Assembly (NCBI RefSeq): GCF_947496515.1
Contig: NZ_CANMDB010000005.1
Coordinates: forward strand, 26,001 to 90,000
DNA length: 64,000 nt
Reading direction: 5' to 3'
DNA from: an uncultured Roseobacter sp.
Lineage (GTDB): Bacteria > Pseudomonadota > Alphaproteobacteria > Rhodobacterales > Rhodobacteraceae
The translations under genes and the position numbers were made by a program. This document shows, piece after piece, positions 54,377 through 64,000 of the stretch. Below the pieces are notes generated by a model, which ran no database searches, was not told where the DNA came from, and worked only from the letters and a program-made list of their open reading frames with translations. The stretch's first letter is position 1. Each line of letters starts with the position of its first letter.

Positions 54377-55461
54377 CAAACCCGTCCTTTCGCACGCTGC
54401 CGCATCGCTTCGGCAAAACGAATGGCTGCGGCAACGGCGCGGTAGTGTTCCGGCGGAATTTGCTCACCGATGTTCGTTGTCGCATGAAGCGCGCGGGCCG
54501 TAGGAGGATCGCTATGAATGGGCACCGCATTCTCCGCAGCCAGCTCACGGATACGGTGGGCCGTTTCATCCACACCTTTGGCCACGCAGATTGGCGCCTG
54601 CCCCGGCTTCCGCTCCCATTTGAGTGCGACCGCGTAGTGTGTCGGGTTCACGATGATGACATCGGCCGTTGGCACATCCGCCATCATTTGTGTATTGGAC
54701 GCAGCCTGCGCACGCTGGCGACGTTCCTGCTTCATGTGCGGATCGCCTTCGTTGTTCTTGGTCTCGTCCGTAACCTCCTTGCGCGACATCATGTTCTGAC
54801 GCAAATGCTCAAAGTGCTGCCAGACAGCATCAATGACGCCGATCACGCCGGAGACGATCACCACGACGAAAAGAAACGACAGGCAGATCTCGATCATCAG
54901 GGAAACCACCAGCCCGGGTTCGGTCTGCAAAACCGCAACCATTTCGTCCAGGCGGATGGTCAGAAAGATCGCCAGACAAGCGGAATAGATAAGAAGTTTC
55001 GCAAAGCTGAGCCCAAACTGGAAAAACCCACGGCGGCCAAACTTGTTTTTGGCATTTGAGATCAGCGATATGTTCTTGATTTTGGGCGCGATCTTCGTGG
55101 GCGCGAAGACAATGCCCTTTGTGGCAAAAAGAGCCAGCAGCACCGCCACCGCTGGCAGCCCGAATATCGGTGACATCGACCAGCCGACGCTGCGCAAGAT
55201 ACCTTCGGTAGGAGCAGCGCCTGCGCCCCCGAAGAACAGCGGCGCAATCTGTGCTGCTTGATCAATCATCACCATCATGGAGGTACCCAGGTGGATCATG
55301 CTGCCACTACCGACAGCCAGCAGCGCGACCCAAAGGCCTGCGTAGGCAGCCGCGGTCAATATCTCCGTCGACCGGGCAATCTCACCCTTCTTGCGGGCCT
55401 CCAACAGCTTTTGCGGCGTTGCCTCATACGTCTTGTCGCTGCGATCCGTCTGATCGCTCAT
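54376..55461 (-). CDS. flhB: Flagellar export switch protein FlhB
   Basis: The 361-residue protein has the N-terminal cytoplasmic tail TYEATPQKLLEARKKGEIARS, four transmembrane segments between residues about 30 and 210, and the autocleavage motif NPTHYAVALKW with Asn at about residue 272. It sets the export switch from rod/hook to filament substrates. It is coupled to fliR upstream (ATGA overlap at 55458-55461) and to the unknown coiled-coil gene downstream. Confidence 0.95.
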   Translation of the reverse strand: MSDQTDRSDKTYEATPQKLLEARKKGEIARSTEILTAAAYAGLWVALLAVGSGSMIHLGTSMMVMIDQAAQIAPLFFGGAGAAPTEGILRSVGWSMSPIFGLPAVAVLLALFATKGIVFAPTKIAPKIKNISLISNAKNKFGRRGFFQFGLSFAKLLIYSACLAIFLTIRLDEMVAVLQTEPGLVVSLMIEICLSFLFVVVIVSGVIGVIDAVWQHFEHLRQNMMSRKEVTDETKNNEGDPHMKQERRQRAQAASNTQMMADVPTADVIIVNPTHYAVALKWERKPGQAPICVAKGVDETAHRIRELAAENAVPIHSDPPTARALHATTNIGEQIPPEHYRAVAAAIRFAEAMRQRAKGRV

Positions 55462-56228
55462 GGAACGGGCCCGAACGGATTGGCGAGGAAGACATCCATT
55501 GCATTCACCCAAACCGACAGGATCAGCGGCGCGGAGACCAGCAGGACAAACAGGCCACCTGCCGTGATCACAGGCGCGCCGACAAAGGCGACCATCAGCT
55601 GTGGCATCGCCTTGTTGATCGCACCGAGCGCAAAGTTATAGAGCACCGACAGGATCACGAAGGGGGCTGCGAGCGTAAAGGCCAAAGTGAACGCACGCGC
55701 GACCTGAGCGACACCCCATTCCGAGAGGACAGATCCATCGGTTATCCGACCCATCGGCATGACATCATACGACAGGATGATCAGCTCGGCCGCTTTGACA
55801 TGCAGCCCCGTCATCACGGCAAGAGCGATCCCACCGATGATCAACACGTATCCCATCGCCGGCATGGGATCTACGCCGGCGCCACCGAAGACCTGCGACA
55901 GCGACGTCGCATGGGCTGCAATCGTGCCAGCGGTTTGCAAGGCAAGTATGAAAAGGCGGATCCCGATGCCGAGCGCCAGCCCGGCCAGGATCTCCGTCAA
56001 GATAAAAAGAGAGAGATCCCCGAACGACGCCGGGATTGCGACGGACTGAATCGCGGGCGAGACGATCAACGTGAAGGCAAAGGCGAGCCCCAGCTTCACA
56101 CGAGAGGATACGGTTTGTTCCCCGAAGCCCGGCAGCATCGATGTGATCGCAGCAACACGGACAAAAACCGCAAAGCCATGCCAGATCGGGAGCTCCAAAA
56201 GCGTCAGAAGCTCGGCCATGTTGTTCAC
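55458..56228 (-). CDS. fliR: Flagellar biosynthesis protein FliR
   Basis: The 256-residue integral membrane protein of the export gate has VRVAAITSMLPGFGEQTVSSRVKLGLAFAFTLIVSPAI (about residues 23-60), TEILAGLALGIGIRLFILALQTAGTIAAHATSLSQVFGG (about 79-117) and a conserved C-terminal membrane segment. It assembles with FliP and FliQ, which are not in the window. The GTG start at 56228 lies in a GTGA overlap with the flhA stop; ATG 56219 is an alternative. Confidence 0.94.
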   Translation of the reverse strand: MNNMAELLTLLELPIWHGFAVFVRVAAITSMLPGFGEQTVSSRVKLGLAFAFTLIVSPAIQSVAIPASFGDLSLFILTEILAGLALGIGIRLFILALQTAGTIAAHATSLSQVFGGAGVDPMPAMGYVLIIGGIALAVMTGLHVKAAELIILSYDVMPMGRITDGSVLSEWGVAQVARAFTLAFTLAAPFVILSVLYNFALGAINKAMPQLMVAFVGAPVITAGGLFVLLVSAPLILSVWVNAMDVFLANPFGPVP

Positions 56229-58309
56229 GCGGCGACGACCCCTACCAGGGATGGCCGCGCCTCAAGGCCGATTTCCTCGAACGACAGCACCGGATTGTTG
56301 ATCCCTTTCGCCCGCATGACGGTGCGCAGGAAACGGCGGCGACGGGTGTTGGTGACAATGGCCGCGTTGATCCCGTTCTGATTGACGGAGTGTAGCTTTT
56401 CCGACATGTTTTCAGCCAGTTGATTGAACACATCCGGCGGCAACGCGATGTCGAGGCCCCGGTCCGCATCGACCTGATAAGTGTTGAACGTATCTTCCCA
56501 TTCCGGCGCCAACTGCACCAGCGGCAGTGTCCCGTCCTCGCGCTTCATATCGGCGACAAGCTGGAAGCCCAGCCGTTGCCGTACGTGCTCGCAGATCGCC
56601 TCAGGCTGAGCGTTGTGCGCGCGTGCCTCCGCCGTTGCTTCGAGTATGAGCGGTAGGTTTCGAATGGAGACTTGTTCATCCAGCAAAAGCCGCAAGACCG
56701 CATGCAGGACGTCGATTGGCACCTTGTCGGGAACCATCTCATCCAGCAGCTTCCGGTTAGCCTCGGCGCGAACGGGGTCCGAGATATTGGTCATCTCATG
56801 CAGCAGCCGGCGCAGGGATTTCAGGGTCAGCAGTCGGCTGAAGTTTCTTTTGACCGTCTCCAAGAGGTGGGTTGCAAGGATTTCCGCCGGCGTGACGAGG
56901 GTGAGCCCGTCGAGCGCGGCCTGCTCCTGATCGCGCGCGTTTATCCACCTGGCCGGGGCGCCATAGACAGGCTCCGTCGTGTCGTCGCCATCGGGAAGCT
57001 CTGTCGCGCCCTCGGGGATCAGCGCGAGAATATGCTCGGAGCTGAGATGTGCTCGAGCCTGCTCCACACCCTGAATGCGCAGGACATAGGTCCCTGATGG
57101 CAAAGCGGCATTGTCGGTCAAGCGGATTTCCGGGAGGATCAGCCCGAACACCGACGCCACATGGGTGCGCATATTCGAGATGCGCGCATCCAGTCCTGTA
57201 CCGGGATCCAGCACCATATTGACCAAATCCGCGGCGAATTCGATGTGAACATCGTCCAATTCAAGGATATCGCCCAAGGGTTTCTCTCGCGGGAGATCGA
57301 CGCTTTCCTCTTCAGTATCGCCCTTGTCAGCGCTGGTCTTCCTCTTGCGATAGAGCAGAAAGGTGATCAGCCCCAGCACTGTTCCGCCAAAGATGAACGG
57401 TGCAAAGGGCAGCCCCGGGAAAAGCGCAAAAAGAACCATCAGCCCCGCAACGGTCCCCAGAGCGGCCGGATGCTTTCCAAGTTGATTGAAAACTGCGAGA
57501 TCTGTAGCCCCCTGCGCACCGCCGCGGGCAAGCAACAGAGCCGATGCAATTGAGATGACAACTGCGGGGATCTGCGAGACGAGCCCGTCGCCTACCGTCA
57601 GGATCGCATAGGTTTCAAACGCCTGGCCAAGCGGCATACCGTGTACCGCAATGCCCATGATCAACCCCGCCACCAAGTTCAGAAGGGTAATCAGCAATCC
57701 GGCAACGGCGTCACCTTTGACAAATTTTGACGCACCGTCCAGCGACCCGAAGAAGGTGGTTTCCTGCTGCTCACGCTCACGGCGATCACGGGCCTCTATA
57801 TGCGTGATAGCGCCGGCTGACATGTCGCTGTCGATCGCCAGCTGCTTGCCCGGCATGCCATCCAGTGCAAACCGCGCCCCGACTTCGGCCATGCGGGTGG
57901 CACCCTTTGTGATCACCATGAAGTTCACGATCAACAGGACGCAGAACACGACGAGCCCGAGAAATACACTCCCCCCCATCACGAACTGCGCAAACCCTTC
58001 GATGACATCACCGGCAGCATTTGTGCCGGTATGGCCCTCGCCGATAATCAGTTTGGTGGAGGACACGTTCAGCGACAGTCGCAACATCAGCGATGCGAGC
58101 AGAATGGTCGGAAAAGCGGAAAAGTCCAAAGGCTTTTCGATGAACAACGTGACGGTAAAAATGAGGATTGCGAGCGCAAAGGACGCAGCCAGACCCACAT
58201 CTAAAACCCAAGAAGGCATCGGCAGGATCATCATCACGATCACCGCCATCAACGCGACAGCAAGCATGATGGTCGGATTAAATAGTGTCTTGGCCGTCAG
58301 TTTGCCCAT
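56225..58309 (-). CDS. flhA: Flagellar export gate protein FlhA
   Basis: The 694-residue protein has eight N-terminal membrane segments (to about residue 320) with the conserved FHIPEP-type cytoplasmic loop region RFALDGMPGKQLAIDSDMSAGAIT (about 145-170). A large cytoplasmic domain follows, ending in the family-typical VVTNTRRRRFLR-like stretch (here AAIVTNTRRRRFLRTVMRAKG). It forms the nonameric ring that docks export chaperones. ATG 58309 has GGGGGA eight bases upstream; GTG 58315 overlaps the upstream stop. Confidence 0.95.
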   Translation of the reverse strand: MGKLTAKTLFNPTIMLAVALMAVIVMMILPMPSWVLDVGLAASFALAILIFTVTLFIEKPLDFSAFPTILLASLMLRLSLNVSSTKLIIGEGHTGTNAAGDVIEGFAQFVMGGSVFLGLVVFCVLLIVNFMVITKGATRMAEVGARFALDGMPGKQLAIDSDMSAGAITHIEARDRREREQQETTFFGSLDGASKFVKGDAVAGLLITLLNLVAGLIMGIAVHGMPLGQAFETYAILTVGDGLVSQIPAVVISIASALLLARGGAQGATDLAVFNQLGKHPAALGTVAGLMVLFALFPGLPFAPFIFGGTVLGLITFLLYRKRKTSADKGDTEEESVDLPREKPLGDILELDDVHIEFAADLVNMVLDPGTGLDARISNMRTHVASVFGLILPEIRLTDNAALPSGTYVLRIQGVEQARAHLSSEHILALIPEGATELPDGDDTTEPVYGAPARWINARDQEQAALDGLTLVTPAEILATHLLETVKRNFSRLLTLKSLRRLLHEMTNISDPVRAEANRKLLDEMVPDKVPIDVLHAVLRLLLDEQVSIRNLPLILEATAEARAHNAQPEAICEHVRQRLGFQLVADMKREDGTLPLVQLAPEWEDTFNTYQVDADRGLDIALPPDVFNQLAENMSEKLHSVNQNGINAAIVTNTRRRRFLRTVMRAKGINNPVLSFEEIGLEARPSLVGVVAA

Positions 58310-58311
58310 AG

Positions 58312-59016
58312 TCACAATCCCCCTTCTCGGGAGAGCAGCGCTCCGCGAGATACCGTGTTGTCCAGTGGAACCAATGATCCTCTCAATGGTCGTGTTGCAG
58401 TCGGTCTTAAGAGAGGGAATCTACCCGTTGTGCGATGCTGCAAAGAGGCCGTACTACGGCCATCGCTATCGTCTTTTAAATCCGCGTAGATGTCTGAAAA
58501 CCGGCGCTTATAGCGTTTGGCGTGCACAGCGGTCCGCGAGTGGTAGGCGCCAACAGCTCGCATCCAATCGCCTTTTTCGTCATACAAATCTGTCAAAAAC
58601 TGAGCTGCATAACGGGCATTGGCAACCGGATCGAACATATCGCCGATGGAAGCAAAACCAGCCGCGTGCCATCTATGGTTGAGTTGAAAACACCCGATAT
58701 CAATGTTGCGCCGACCCGAAGCGACATGCCGCTTCACGTGATCAATCGCTATTTCTCTGGTTTCAAACCAGTGGCCCTCGCCTGCGACGTTAACGGCCCA
58801 TGGCCAGGGCTTGAGAACGCCTTCTAACGTGCGACCAGTCTCGGTTCTCGTGATCGCGCGTAAAATTTCGAGGGGGACATCGTACTCTACAGACGCATCC
58901 CGCGCCGCCTGATCGCATAAAAACTCCGCGCGCGCCAAGGCATCATTCACGATCGCAAGTGTCAATAGGAGCACGCCACCTATCAATTTGCTCAAAAAGC
59001 ACCCGCTGCCAAGCAT
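58312..59016 (-). CDS. Transglycosylase SLT-domain protein heading the flagellar block
   Basis: The 234-residue protein has an N-terminal signal or membrane segment (SKLIGGVLLLTLAIVNDALARA) and an SLT-like muramidase domain with catalytic Glu in ILRAITRTETGRTLEGVLKPWPWAVNVAGEGHWF (Glu near residue 58). RRNIDIGCFQLNHRWHAAGFASIGDMFDP (about 102-130) and AVGAYHSRT follow. In alphaproteobacteria such proteins open peptidoglycan for the rod. The last 50 residues look poorly conserved. It is coupled to flhA. Confidence 0.85.
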   Translation of the reverse strand: MLGSGCFLSKLIGGVLLLTLAIVNDALARAEFLCDQAARDASVEYDVPLEILRAITRTETGRTLEGVLKPWPWAVNVAGEGHWFETREIAIDHVKRHVASGRRNIDIGCFQLNHRWHAAGFASIGDMFDPVANARYAAQFLTDLYDEKGDWMRAVGAYHSRTAVHAKRYKRRFSDIYADLKDDSDGRSTASLQHRTTGRFPLLRPTATRPLRGSLVPLDNTVSRGALLSREGGL

Positions 59017-59047
59017 GGTCCACCTGTTTCAATTTGCATTCTGCAAC

Positions 59048-59086
59048 TTCGGTAACCTGACAGTTCGAAGTTTATTTTCGGTAACC
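59048..59086. promoter_or_regulatory. Direct repeats upstream of the flagellar block
   Basis: TTCGGTAACC occurs at 59048-59057 and again at 59077-59086, 29 bases apart, 32 to 70 bases upstream of the transglycosylase start. On the coding strand it reads GGTTACCGAA. It could be a binding site for a flagellar regulator; none is identified. Confidence 0.4.
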
Positions 59087-59142
59087 ACGTTTGGAAAAAT
59101 CGCGAAATCTGATTTGTATGGAAGCCGACCTTGGGTCACCAA

Positions 59143-59361
59143 ATGTCACAACCAACAGACTTGGTATCCAGTGATGCCCCGGCAGTCGATCCGGCGCAGT
59201 CAGACCGTGCACTGCTTCGACTAGTTGAAACTAACTTCTCCCGCCCCTGCTTCGATTTTCCTTGGCCGCTCATCAAGAAATTACGTTTGCAGCCGCAGAA
59301 GATCGTGGAATGCATGTCAAACGCTGACCTACTGCTCAAAAGCCATTTCGGCTCGGTTTAG
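59143..59361 (+). CDS. Small hypothetical ORF
   Basis: A 72-codon frame on the opposite strand to the flagellar block, beginning MSQPTDLVSSDAPAVDPAQSD and containing RLVETNFSRPCFDFPWPLIKKLRLQPQK. No family is recognised and no good ribosome site precedes it. It could be a real small protein or a relic; the IS3 fragment begins 60 bases later. Confidence 0.3.
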   Translation: MSQPTDLVSSDAPAVDPAQSDRALLRLVETNFSRPCFDFPWPLIKKLRLQPQKIVECMSNADLLLKSHFGSV

Positions 59362-59419
59362 AGCTTGCTCAATCTCCAGAAATGGTAAATGAATGAGAAA
59401 AAACCTTTAAAGATGCGTA

Positions 59420-59620
59420 GACTATCGGGATGATCAAGGCACAGGAAGCCACTTTCCATGCGATGGAAGTGTGCCCAAGCACGGTTTCAGCCGGGATACG
59501 CTCTATAACTATCAAGCAAACTATGCTGGCGTAGAGCTCTCCGATATTTGTGATATAGGAGCTTTGGAAGACGGGAATGCCAAGCTCAGGTGGTGACTTG
59601 CGGACACGGTACTGGAAACT
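59420..59620 (+). pseudogene. IS3-family OrfA relic
   Basis: Reading through one frameshift gives IKAQEATFHAMEVC, then VPKHGFSRDTLYNYQANYAGVELSD, then GALEDGNAKLRW, a stop, and LADTVLE. These are the helix-turn-helix and zipper landmarks of IS3 OrfA. It is frameshifted, interrupted by a stop and cut at both ends. It is the fifth IS3 fragment in the window. Confidence 0.75.
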
Positions 59621-59904
59621 GTTTTCTGAATGGTTTGCGCTCTAGCATCCAGCCAAGCCCACGGTAGTCGAACCGACGCCTCTTGGGCTGCGATCGTCGA
59701 CATCTGTGTTCTGATACTGTATTCGGCGGGGCTGTCACATTGGACCGTCTTCAGCTCGAAACCGGCAAGTGTGAAGGATCGCCGCTGCGAAATGTCATGA
59801 TCTCGCACTGCCTTCAGTGCTGCCTCTCGCCGCTCAATCAGTGGCGTTAGGTTTTTACCGGCAAACCACGACTTTTTCGGAAACGCAGCTGCGAAACAAA
59901 TCAC
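59521..59904 (-). CDS. Hypothetical ORF whose end runs into an IS3 relic
   Basis: A 127-codon frame whose first 95 codons (LIERREAALKAVRDHDISQRRSFTLAGFELKTVQ and following) look like ordinary protein. The last part lies antisense to the IS3 OrfA relic at 59420-59620. It is probably a native gene truncated by the old insertion. No family is recognised. Confidence 0.3.
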   Translation of the reverse strand: MICFAAAFPKKSWFAGKNLTPLIERREAALKAVRDHDISQRRSFTLAGFELKTVQCDSPAEYSIRTQMSTIAAQEASVRLPWAWLDARAQTIQKTVSSTVSASHHLSLAFPSSKAPISQISESSTPA

Positions 59905-59976
59905 TATGGTAGATAAGGATGCTTGCCGAAGTACGCTCTAAACGTTTCTCGCAGGACAACGATGTCTGCAAAGTTT

Positions 59977-60053
<77 letters not shown>

Positions 60054-60126
60054 CCAATTGCGCAGCCTCATGACAAACAGATATGAGGCGCATCGAAAGA
60101 GAGATACAAAACAGAGGTTTTACTAG

Positions 60127-60242
60127 GTTTGGCGGTGACTTACTCTCCCACGCCTTAAGACGCAGTACCATCAGCGCTACGGCACTTAACGGCTGGGTTC
60201 GGGATGGGACCAGGTGTTTTGCTCATGCTATGACCACCAAAC
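60127..60242 (-). rRNA. rrf: 5S ribosomal RNA
   Basis: About 116 nt on the minus strand. The 5' end GTTTGGTGGTCATAGC and 3' end GTCACCGCCAAAC pair as helix I. The internal CCCATCCCGAACCC and GGCGTGGGAGAGTAAGTC are diagnostic. Confidence 0.95.
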
Positions 60243-60755
60243 CATGAAAAACCTCTGTTGTCCAAGTCAGCACTCTAATGTGCTGTGTATGCTTTTGATA
60301 CCAAGCAGAAAATCTCTCTTCTACTGGATCAAATCAAGCCTATCGGGCAATTAGTACCAGTCAACTGAACACATTGCTGTGCTTACATCTCTGGCCTATC
60401 GACGAGGTGGTCTACCTCGGCCCTCAGGGATACCTTGTTTTGAGGGGGGCTTCCCGCTTAGATGCCTTCAGCGGTTATCCTTTCCGATCATAGCTACCCT
60501 GCACTGCTGCTGGCGCAACAACAGGTCCACCAGTGGATCGTTCACCCCGGTCCTCTCGTACTAGGGGCAACTCCTCTCAAGTATCCTACACCCACGGAAG
60601 ATAGGGACCGAACTGTCTCACGACGTTCTAAACCCAGCTCACGTACCTCTTTAAACGGCGAACAGCCGTACCCTTGGGACCTGCTCCAGCCCCAGGATGA
60701 GATGAGCCGACATCGAGGTGCCAAACACTGCCGTCGATATGGACTCTTGGGCAGT

Positions 60756-60809
<54 letters not shown>

Positions 60810-60947
60810 TCGGGACCACCGGATCACTATGGCCGTCTTTCGACTCTGCTCGACTTGTCAGTCTCGCAGTCAGGCTGGCTTCTGCCATTGCACTCAACGA
60901 GCGATTTCCGACCGCTCTGAGCCAACCTTCGCGCGCCTCCGTTACGC

Positions 60948-60979
<32 letters not shown>

Positions 60980-61237
60980 ACCACACAGGGTCCCGGATCC
61001 GGATAACGGACCGCGGTTAGACATCAAGCAGAACAAGGGTGGTATCTCAAGGGTGGCTCCACGCAAACTGGCGTTCACGCTTCAAAGCCCACCACCTATC
61101 CTGCACATGTTCGGCCTAATGCCAGTGTGAAGTTGTAGTAAAGGTGCACGGGGTCTTTCCGTCTAACCGCGGGAAACCTGCATCTTGACAGGTAATTCAA
61201 TTTCGCTGAGTCTATGTTGGAGACAGCGGGGAAGTCG

Positions 61238-61320
<83 letters not shown>

Positions 61321-62055
61321 TGGGCTTCAATTCAAGGCTCTCACCTCTCCTTTTAACCTTCAGGCACCGGGCAGGCGTCAGACCCTATACGTCGTCTTGC
61401 GACTTCGCAGAGCCCTGTGTTTTTAATAAACAGTCGCCACCCCCTGGTTTGTGCCCCCAGCCAATACTTGCGTAGAAACTGGGCCTCCTTCTCGCGAACT
61501 TACGGAGGTATTTTGCCGAGTTCCTTCAACATAGTTCTCTCAAGCGCCTTGGTATTCTCTACCAGTCCACCTGTGTCGGTTTAGGGTACGATCTAGCGAT
61601 GGAGCTATTTCCAGGAACCTATTAGCCGCCCATTCAATCCAATAAGGATGAACGACCTTCAAGATCCGTCACTTCCATCTGGCCCAGGAATATTAACCTG
61701 GTTCCCATCGACTACGCCTTTCGGCCTCGCCTTAGGGGTCGGCTTACCCTGCTCAGATTAGCTTTAAGCAGGAACCCTTGGACTTTCGGCGACAGTGTCT
61801 CTCACACTGTTTGTCGCTACTCATGTCATCATTCTCACTAGTGATCTCTCCACCGGATCGCTCACGCGCCGGCTTCACAGAAAACTCCGCGTGTCCAATA
61901 TCCCCGAAGGGAATAAGGACACATGGAATTATGTCACACTACGCTCTGCTACCATGCGATAAACGCATCCTAAGCTTCGGCTCATGGCTTGAGCCCCGTT
62001 ACATCTTCGCCGCAGGACAACTTATTTAGACCAGTGAGCTGTTACGCTATCTTTA

Positions 62056-62086
<31 letters not shown>

Positions 62087-62587
62087 TTGTTTTGGTCGTC
62101 CCACCTGCTTTCCCACTTAGCCATGAATTAGGGGCCTTAGCTGTAGGTCAGGGTTGTTTCCCTCTCCACGACGGACGTTAGCATTCGCCGTGTGTCTGCC
62201 ATCTAGTACTCCTCGGTATTCGGAGTTTGGTTAGGATCAGTAAGCCTGTGGGGCCCCATTACCCATCCAGTGCTCTACCCCCGAGGGTATTCGGATGACG
62301 CTCTACCTAAATAGATTTCGCAGAGAACCAGCTATCTCCGAGTTTGATTGGCCTTTCACCCCTAGGCACAGCTCATCCCGATCCTTTTCAACGGATGTGG
62401 GTTCGGTCCTCCAGTACGTGTTACCGTACCTTCAACCTGGCCATGCCTAGATCACTCGGTTTCGGGTCTGATCCCACGAACTCGACGCCCTATTAAGACT
62501 CGCTTTCGCTGCGCCTACACCTAACGGCTTAAGCTTGCTCGTGAGACCAAGTCGATGACCCATTATACAAAAGGTACGCCGTCACAA

Positions 62588-63130
62588 GACTAGAGACTAA
62601 TTTGGACGCATCAGAATGACCGGCGGTAACGGATCCAAACCGCCTCGCGGCCTGGGTTCTCATCCTCGATCCCTGCGTTGGACAGGTGATCTATCGCCAG
62701 CGACAGGCTCGCCCGATCGGACAACATGTACCCAAAACCGATAAGGGTCCTAAATTGCAGTTCACCGCCGAGGTCTGTGCCATCGCTGCCTTCACCGTAG
62801 TAACCCGTCGCCAGGCTTCCTTCGATGAACCAGTTTTCTGATGTATTCCATAACGCTGACAAACCGATCCCAACATAGGTATCGCCGTCATCGTTGGCTT
62901 GGGCAGCAACCATCCCAGAAATCTCACCCCACCGATACTCGCGTATCGGGTCAGAGTGAATTTCGAGCTGGAGAGCAGCTGCATCCGATCCACTATCTCC
63001 CACACCATCTTGCCCGACGCCGATCACATAATCGGCGCTAAGCGCTAGTGTTGATGTAAGGAAAAGGAGCGGTACGGTAAGTATAGGCAATTTCATGCCG
63101 ACACTGTTCCGTCCAAATTAGACTCTAGTC
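62588..63130 (-). other. 23S rRNA intervening sequence (helix 25)
   Basis: Two 21-base arms (62588-62608 and 63110-63130) are reverse complements with one mismatch, giving a long terminal stem continuous with the helix 25 base. In known intervening sequences such stems are cut by RNase III, leaving fragmented but functional 23S rRNA. The enclosed loop is almost filled by one ORF: its stop is two bases from one arm and its start 13 bases from the other. Base composition by eye is less GC-rich than chromosomal genes around it. Confidence 0.9.
62611..63096 (-). CDS. PagL-like lipid A 3-O-deacylase (acyloxyacyl hydrolase family) inside 23S rRNA
   Basis: The intact 161-residue ORF, sense to the rRNA, starts with a signal peptide (MKLPILTVPLLFLTSTLALSA, residues 1-21). 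Alternating amphipathic strands of a small beta-barrel follow. Near the C terminus is AIDHLSNAGIEDENPGREAV with His137, Ser139 and Glu151, matching in order and spacing the His-X-Ser and later Glu (+14 from His) catalytic residues of PagL. It ends in an aromatic residue (YRRSF), an outer-membrane assembly signal. PagL removes the 3-O-acyl chain of lipid A in the outer membrane. The ribosome site is weak (GGACGGA, partly in the terminal stem, 13 bases from ATG). Confidence 0.8.
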   Translation of the reverse strand: MKLPILTVPLLFLTSTLALSADYVIGVGQDGVGDSGSDAAALQLEIHSDPIREYRWGEISGMVAAQANDDGDTYVGIGLSALWNTSENWFIEGSLATGYYGEGSDGTDLGGELQFRTLIGFGYMLSDRASLSLAIDHLSNAGIEDENPGREAVWIRYRRSF

Positions 63131-63506
63131 AAGCTCCGACTGATTGTAGGCGTTCGGTTTCAGGTACTGTTTCACTCCCCTCGTCGGGGTGCTTTTCACC
63201 TTTCCCTCACGGTACTGGTTCACTATCGGTCAGTAAGGAGTACTTAGCCTTCGAAGGTGGTCCTCCGATCTTCAGACAGAATTTCACGTGTTCCGCCCTA
63301 CTTAATACGTCTCTCAGTGCTTCTTATACGGGACTATCACCCACTCTGGTTGCGCATTCCAACGCATTCTAACCACACATCAAGCTCGGCTGGTCCCCGT
63401 TCGCTCGCCGCTACTAGGGGAGTATCAATTGATTTCCTTTCCTCCGGGTACTTAGATGTTTCAGTTCCCCGGGTTTGCTTTTATAACCCTATGTATTCAG
63501 GTCATA

Positions 63507-63563
63507 AATACCTGTTTTACCGCATTATTAACCGATCCCGAAGGATCAATAATAACACAGTAT
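63507..63563 (-). other. Extended helix 9 hairpin of 23S rRNA
   Basis: Within the helix 9 region the rRNA carries an AT-rich hairpin of about 57 nt capped by TTCG (GATCC-TTCG-GGATC core). Alphaproteobacteria often carry short intervening sequences here that are removed to give a 5.8S-like 5' fragment. Confidence 0.6.
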
Positions 63564-63702
63564 CAGGTGGGTTGCCCCATTCAGAAATCTGTGGATCAAA
63601 GCCTATTCTCGGCTCCTCACAGCTTATCGCAGAGTATCACGTCTTTCATCGCCTCTTACTGCCAAGGCATTCACCAAACGCCCTTTTCGCGCTTGATTTG
63701 AT

Positions 63703-64000
63703 CCAGAAAAAGAAAGACTTGCGTCAATCGCGGGCCTCTCAGCTGGTAACTAAAAGACGCCCTTTATTCTGAACCAAAAGCATACTTTTCCCGCCTGGCT
63801 CCGTGCGGAACCAGACAATGAGCAGTCTTTCAACTGCTCGGGTTAGTGTACTTGACTTGGACAACTCTGTTCGTTTCAGCAGGGATACACATAGAAAAGC
63901 GAGGAAGCACCCGTCTATATGCCTTCCACCGAGGTGGAACCAAACTGAGATCGTCACCCTACTTGGTGGGATCAAACAGTGTTGTTATTGTATCTCTCTA
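63703..64000 (-). other. 16S-23S internal transcribed spacer, 23S-proximal part
   Basis: About 300 bases upstream of the 23S 5' end to the window edge. No tRNA gene is seen in this part; tRNA-Ile and tRNA-Ala, if present, would lie nearer 16S, outside the window. Several short hairpins are visible, including GAGCAGTTGAAAGACTGCTC. Confidence 0.75.

Follow-up and report, generated by a model that had tools for sequence, protein, structure and literature searches.

Genes for ribosomal RNA are generally regarded as non-coding. The reading frames described within intervening sequences (IVSs) and other rRNA inserts encode S23/IVP proteins (PMC4990558), transposases (PMC2672173) or homing endonucleases (PMC11270868), as far as the available sections of these papers go. 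S23/IVP-coding IVSs are recorded in Coxiella, Leptospira, Brucella and Xanthomonas (PMC4990558), and excision by RNase III is reported for IVSs at helices 9, 25 and 45 (PMC4990558, PMC8708148), in each case in the accessible text.

The locus described here lies in a 64,000-nucleotide stretch of Roseobacter DNA, analysed as a whole and called the window below. It shares with the S23/IVP-coding IVSs the insertion into a dispensable helix, the complementary ends and a single reading frame in the loop. The passenger, however, belongs to an outer-membrane enzyme family (PagL) and has a low dN/dS, instead of being the S23 helical protein, and the PagL gene is also found outside 23S in relatives, whereas the Coxiella S23 ORF is described, in the sections available, as decaying. 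IVSs at helices 9, 25 and 45 for which the accessible parts of PMC4990558 and PMC8708148 describe no gene have the same site and arm architecture; those of PMC8708148 measure 100-200 nt, while the PagL insert is 543 nt long and coding. The transposase-bearing 23S inserts of Deinococcus radiodurans and Nostoc, as presented in the part of PMC2672173 at hand, are likewise coding and have inverted repeats, but the PagL inserts have no transposase and those found are all at one site. The rRNA insertions of CPR bacteria, which in the accessible portion of PMC11270868 carry homing endonucleases and are in many cases group I introns, also hold an ORF inside an rRNA gene; the PagL insert differs in matching no intron family at the Rfam gathering score and no Pfam endonuclease.

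A PagL-family reading frame within the 23S rRNA gene

The interrupted gene and its surroundings comprise the following features, from the 5' end of the transcript onwards.

60330..63698, minus strand: 23S rRNA gene, interrupted at helix 25 (RF02541, 2600.7 bits, model positions 1-2925)
63131..63698, minus strand: 5' part of 23S, the first rRNA fragment that excision of the insert would leave
62588..63130, minus strand: intervening sequence of 543 nt in helix 25 (delimited by comparing its 23S flanks with those of relatives; junction mapped to E. coli nt 542)
63104..63130, minus strand: 5' arm, first in the transcript (inverted repeat of 27 nt, 89%; co-variation in 22 inserts)
62611..63096, minus strand: PagL-family ORF of 161 aa with H137, S139 and E151 (PF09411, predicted fold, active-site motif)
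62588..62614, minus strand: 3' arm (inverted repeat of 27 nt, 89%; co-variation in 22 inserts)
60330..62587, minus strand: 3' part of 23S, the second rRNA fragment that excision of the insert would leave
60241-60127, minus strand: 5S rRNA
60053-59977, minus strand: tRNA-Met

The break in 23S at 62588-63130, reported in a first-pass annotation made from the sequence alone, was borne out: the flanks on both sides match the 23S of relatives, which is partly uninterrupted, with a gap of 543 nt between them. Our mapping places the junction at nt 542 of E. coli 23S, which we take to lie within helix 25. This helix is among the IVS sites listed in the available sections of PMC4990558. The inverted arms of 21 bases given in the annotation exist as complementary ends, but they are longer than stated, with 27 nt at 89% complementarity; all of the outer 21 positions pair except position 9. 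Junctions, arms and the E. coli mapping together support the view of PagL as the passenger of a helix-25 intervening sequence. The same arrangement, with both junctions at the identical base, recurs in 21 further genomes, and in another (G043) the one visible junction agrees; the insert is therefore not a matter of chance. A single 23S copy was found in the 61 contigs of the window's own assembly, and in G319 both of the 23S copies read have the insert. No intron family reached the Rfam gathering score in window positions 55000-64000. Elsewhere in the gene, the 5'-end region is also extended relative to E. coli (window 63520-63570), resembling the helix-9 inserts that PMC4990558, in its accessible part, names for Alphaproteobacteria.

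The loop is one intact ORF of 161 aa (63096..62611), read in the direction of the rRNA, as annotated. Its start codon is at insert base 35, and a further 23 nt of insert follow the stop codon. The assignment to PagL was upheld by the profile HMM (PF09411, 61.8 bits against a cut-off of 23) and by the predicted structure, an 8-stranded outer-membrane barrel like that of PDB 2erv, which we take to be PagL of Pseudomonas aeruginosa. The two proteins share the barrel, the His-Ser-Glu spacing and the HMM family, but they differ in genomic site and are only 20-21% identical in structural alignments; other small barrels score below 2erv in the structural comparison. H137, S139 and E151, which we take to be the catalytic His-Ser-Glu of PagL, are present with the expected spacing as H-x-S-x11-E. 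Among the aligned relatives, 54/54 match PF09411 at E<=0.001. That the passenger is unlike the S23 four-helix protein also held, PagL being the sole Pfam match of the ORF up to E 10; no S23/IVP domain was found (Pfam up to E 10; no NCBIfam match listed), nor any mobility, nuclease or endonuclease domain in Pfam. Because of the fold and the active site, a putative lipid A deacylase activity can be assigned to the embedded protein. Its N-terminus is hydrophobic, as judged by eye. The protein collection holds the window's ORF only as a truncated form of 100 aa.

Distribution, arm pairing and selection

The search of relatives for the ORF at helix 25 that the annotation had proposed found it in 10 Roseobacter genomes and 13 other genera. 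In a sample of 19 Roseobacter genomes including the window's own, PagL lies in helix 25 in 10 (own, G004-G009, G013, G015, G016), and in five the helix is uninterrupted with PagL elsewhere (G003, G010, G012, G017, G018); the remaining four were not classed, G001 having no 23S match and the matches of G002, G011 and G014 stopping before the site. Across the family, 295 genomes were queried with an uninterrupted 23S piece and 113 gave a 23S match: 89 are unsplit at helix 25 (counting G317 despite an identity of only 68%), 18 have an insert signature and 6 are cut short. Fourteen of the 18 signatures hold PagL (own included; G043 partial at a contig end), in 14 genus codes, three are masked (G105, G128, G329) and one has other content (G215). 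In the class survey of 385 genomes, 100 gave a 23S match, five of them one-sided and, like the 285 genomes that gave none, uninformative on helix 25; a large helix-25 insert was seen only in the window's own genome, and 93 of the 100 show none. Both surveys scored the two best candidates per genome, so that further 23S copies may be missed, and some stretches were masked. The G215 insert (L112:960-1468) is 509 nt long, starts like the others, lacks PagL and apparently carries another reading frame, which is broken and includes a membrane-like stretch; in another family of the class, about 119 nt are inserted at helix 25 of G418 (C35:19596-19714).

Decay of the gene in relatives had been named in the annotation as a refuting outcome. 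We looked for it, and all 22 complete inserts have an intact ORF in sense orientation, and their dN/dS is far below 1. The Roseobacter relatives came from a protein query, which partly ascertains intact ORFs; 23S DNA was the query that found, or found again, those of the other 13 genera. A search for copies outside 23S covered 80 genomes, namely 67 of the 113 family-survey matches and 13 more Roseobacter. No PagL outside 23S was found in 22 of the 23 embedded genomes, the sole exception being G199, with a type I PagL outside 23S (L161:5632-6189) besides the type II gene in its 23S. Among the 53 empty-site genomes, 23 have PagL elsewhere (G115 being doubtful) and 30 gave none.

The arms pair and co-vary. 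They form a long helix in the predicted RNA fold, and the insert RNA as a whole is predicted to fold tightly (z -8.0, 20 shuffles). In 22 genomes with thirteen distinct arm pairs (G043 left out), 97% of the arm cells of these thirteen show standard pairing, as against 26-41% for partners that are slid along the arm. Both-sided changes occur at 11/20 paired positions within the arms, a number reached by 1/1000 shuffles (shuffled mean 7.7); the count of extra pair types is not above that of shuffles (438/1000). The outer arm is common to Roseobacter and the other genera, despite PagL proteins of two subfamilies, and the abutting flank bases are identical in 22/22 inserts and differ at the five empty Roseobacter sites. 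Since outer arm and flank bases are common while the PagL subfamilies differ, we infer a single scaffold whose cargo has been swapped; descent of all from one very old embedded ancestor may account for the same pattern.

The embedded genes bear the mark of selection on their protein. Median dN/dS is 0.138 in clade A (3 pairs), 0.100 in clade B (21 pairs) and 0.170 for type II (finite values of 66 pairs). The corresponding median pN/pS values of 0.264, 0.205 and 0.434 compare with 0.96-2.41 when the same alignments are read one or two bases off. Synonymous differences amount to 0.52-0.65 in the least diverged pairs, while four sample pairs have 23S flanks of 96-100% identity; in that comparison three saturated pairs give no dN/dS value. 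The motif H-x-S-x(11-12)-E is present in 22/22 embedded proteins against 20/34 outside proteins; in those without it Asn or Asp replaces the Glu, apart from G251, which lacks the Ser. The motif and intactness counts are not phylogenetically independent. G043, whose contig begins inside the insert, was excluded from the arm, dN/dS, triad and tree counts, and the doubtful family member O_G115 and the wrong-frame O_G146 from the tree and triad counts. Because dN/dS is well below 1, PagL is probably translated from within 23S, and the selection on the protein sequence suggests that the product is likely made from the rRNA transcript itself.

Probable movement of PagL into and out of the 23S gene

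The tree of 56 PagL proteins calls for 8 changes of location; well-supported branches force 5 or more of them. Subfamilies I and II are separated by a long branch and occupy the same helix, and clades A and B of embedded PagL conflict with the rpoB tree. On that tree, built from one gene in 30 genomes, the five Roseobacter with an empty site cluster together within the embedded ones, with support of 88/84, and this nesting makes it look as if embedding was ancestral in Roseobacter and was followed by one exit.

An older address may be preserved between ychF and trpA. The order ychF-pagL-trpA, with a type I PagL, occurs in 8 other genera, and ychF and trpA adjoin without PagL in 17/17 Roseobacter genomes examined; among the 29 genomes checked, PagL is also absent between ychF and trpA in G199, and G020, G231 and G308 have no trpA near ychF. 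The families of the two neighbours were checked for G133. We infer from this gene order that ychF-trpA is the site vacated by PagL in Roseobacter. All 8 PagL genes at ychF-trpA (e.g. L152:5476-5988) have Asn or Asp for the catalytic Glu, and their activity is in question.

The five empty-site Roseobacter have all kept PagL elsewhere. In G003 and G017 (L143:603-1187, L146:980-1600) it is flanked by tuf and rpsJ-rplC in the same orientation, in a ribosomal-protein cluster whose neighbour families were checked for G017; these copies have Asn for the catalytic Glu, which puts their activity in question. In G010 and G012 it adjoins a mechanosensitive channel gene. In G018 an intact PagL outside 23S is accompanied by decayed 23S remnants (L010:1387-1454 and 2011-2035) that match 23S up to the insertion point. 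Each side scores above 2000/2000 shuffles (upstream 43, with shuffles reaching at most 19; downstream 20, with shuffles up to 16), traces of both arms are visible by eye, and Rfam did not call the remnants at E 0.1. On its sequence, this locus is the fossil of a former 23S insert, in which PagL outlived its host. Such remnants were sought beside 28 outside PagL loci and none was found at the 27 others.

A PagL gene on a Tritonibacter plasmid was considered as an embedded case and rejected, there being no 23S match within the surrounding 12.3 kb. The 23S sequence present on Sulfitobacter plasmids (NZ_CP045374.1, NZ_CP084952.1 and others) has no interruption at helix 25, and such plasmids might carry rRNA genes from cell to cell.

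Expression, competing readings and significance

As a whole, the data are best explained by a domesticated PagL cargo in a helix-25 IVS, with the protein under selection and likely made from the rRNA transcript, an account that we consider probable. PagL would be co-transcribed with 23S from the rRNA promoters, because in the window conserved 23S gives way to a leader of only 34 nt ahead of the start codon, and a search for a sigma-70-like promoter gave none. That leader measures 56-105 nt in type II inserts, and an insert promoter was discarded for 62500-63400 by a scan covering the sigma-70 type. By analogy with known IVSs (PMC4990558, PMC8708148, in their available sections), RNase III would excise the insert, with no re-ligation. 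The short-lived excised RNA would be translated, as the low dN/dS suggests, into a protein that fold and active site point to as a lipid A deacylase. In Roseobacter, PagL would have left the ychF-trpA site for the insert scaffold, whose outer arm is common to other genera, and one Roseobacter clade would later have emptied its 23S and kept PagL elsewhere. The type II proteins, with their unusual N-terminus and an end that lacks an aromatic residue, weigh against this explanation as regards their export. Shine-Dalgarno enrichment was dropped as evidence of translation, the 4-mers before the starts being no commoner than in shuffles (core 4-mer 9/22 against a mean of 10.5; any of eight 4-mers 13/22 against 14.4). 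The tight RNA fold could hinder translation, and in Coxiella the IVS ORF apparently yields no product in vivo and the IVS RNA is quickly degraded, according to the accessible text of PMC4990558. Ready translation is weakened by these three points.

The first-pass annotation had left three readings side by side, a selfish element, a domesticated cargo and a coupling of lipid A remodelling to ribosome synthesis, and the domesticated cargo is the one our results favour. Growth coupling would mean that the location itself is selected, each rRNA transcript yielding a PagL mRNA so that lipid A remodelling scales with ribosome synthesis. The occupation of one helix by two subfamilies a long branch apart speaks for it, as do the tuf-rpsJ position on the same strand in two empty-helix Roseobacter and the 22/23 embedded genomes in which no other PagL was found; but the two tuf-rpsJ copies are of questionable activity with their Asn for Glu, no ribosomal gene adjoins PagL in the other three Roseobacter exits, and PagL was not found in 30/53 empty-site genomes, so that we regard this reading as somewhat doubtful. 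The common outer arm and identical abutting flank bases of 22/22 inserts would also suit a selfish helix-25 IVS that spreads between rrn genes with PagL as a tolerated passenger, and so would the patchy distribution, the other content of the G215 insert and the conflict of clades A and B with the rpoB tree, which implies that inserts or genes move. Such an element is nevertheless improbable, given PagL as sole Pfam match with no mobility or nuclease domain, the low dN/dS, and a gene that persists outside 23S in 5/5 empty-helix Roseobacter, in G018 within a decayed 23S remnant.

A dead or unexpressed passenger, kept by RNA structure or by 23S gene conversion, would fit the tight fold, the lack of Shine-Dalgarno enrichment and the Coxiella precedent of a decaying, apparently untranslated IVS ORF (PMC4990558, available sections), yet it is very unlikely in view of the codon-position pattern with its shifted-frame control, the 22/22 intact inserts, and synonymous sites that diverge where the 23S flanks do not. 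Since rRNA operons are hard to assemble and the window's own assembly is in 61 contigs, a mis-join was also considered; the recurrence of both junctions in 22 genomes and of one in G043, with G016 and G199 as single-contig assemblies, rules out an assembly artefact for practical purposes. For the domesticated cargo, expression tied to rRNA synthesis is possibly itself the benefit. A bolder formulation, which we put forward tentatively and rate below an even chance, is that the rRNA operon is at the same time a protein-coding operon in this family, in which each precursor of 23S would include an mRNA for an outer-membrane lipid A deacylase and wire envelope remodelling to ribosome synthesis, and that a gene leaving 23S can re-enter the tuf-rpsJ operon.

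The annotation knew of no described example of PagL in an rRNA insert, and we found none in the literature searched, a search in which subscription journals were mostly outside. Each of the components belongs to a known type; in that literature we came across no conserved gene for a cellular enzyme that resides in 23S rRNA. An envelope enzyme family is lodged inside 23S rRNA in at least 14 genera, with selection on the protein and as the only copy found in 22/23 genomes. Whether an excised rRNA insert serves as mRNA, and whether the lipid A of the envelope follows the rate of ribosome synthesis, can now be tested, and the finding raises the question of how many further genes are being overlooked within rRNA genes.
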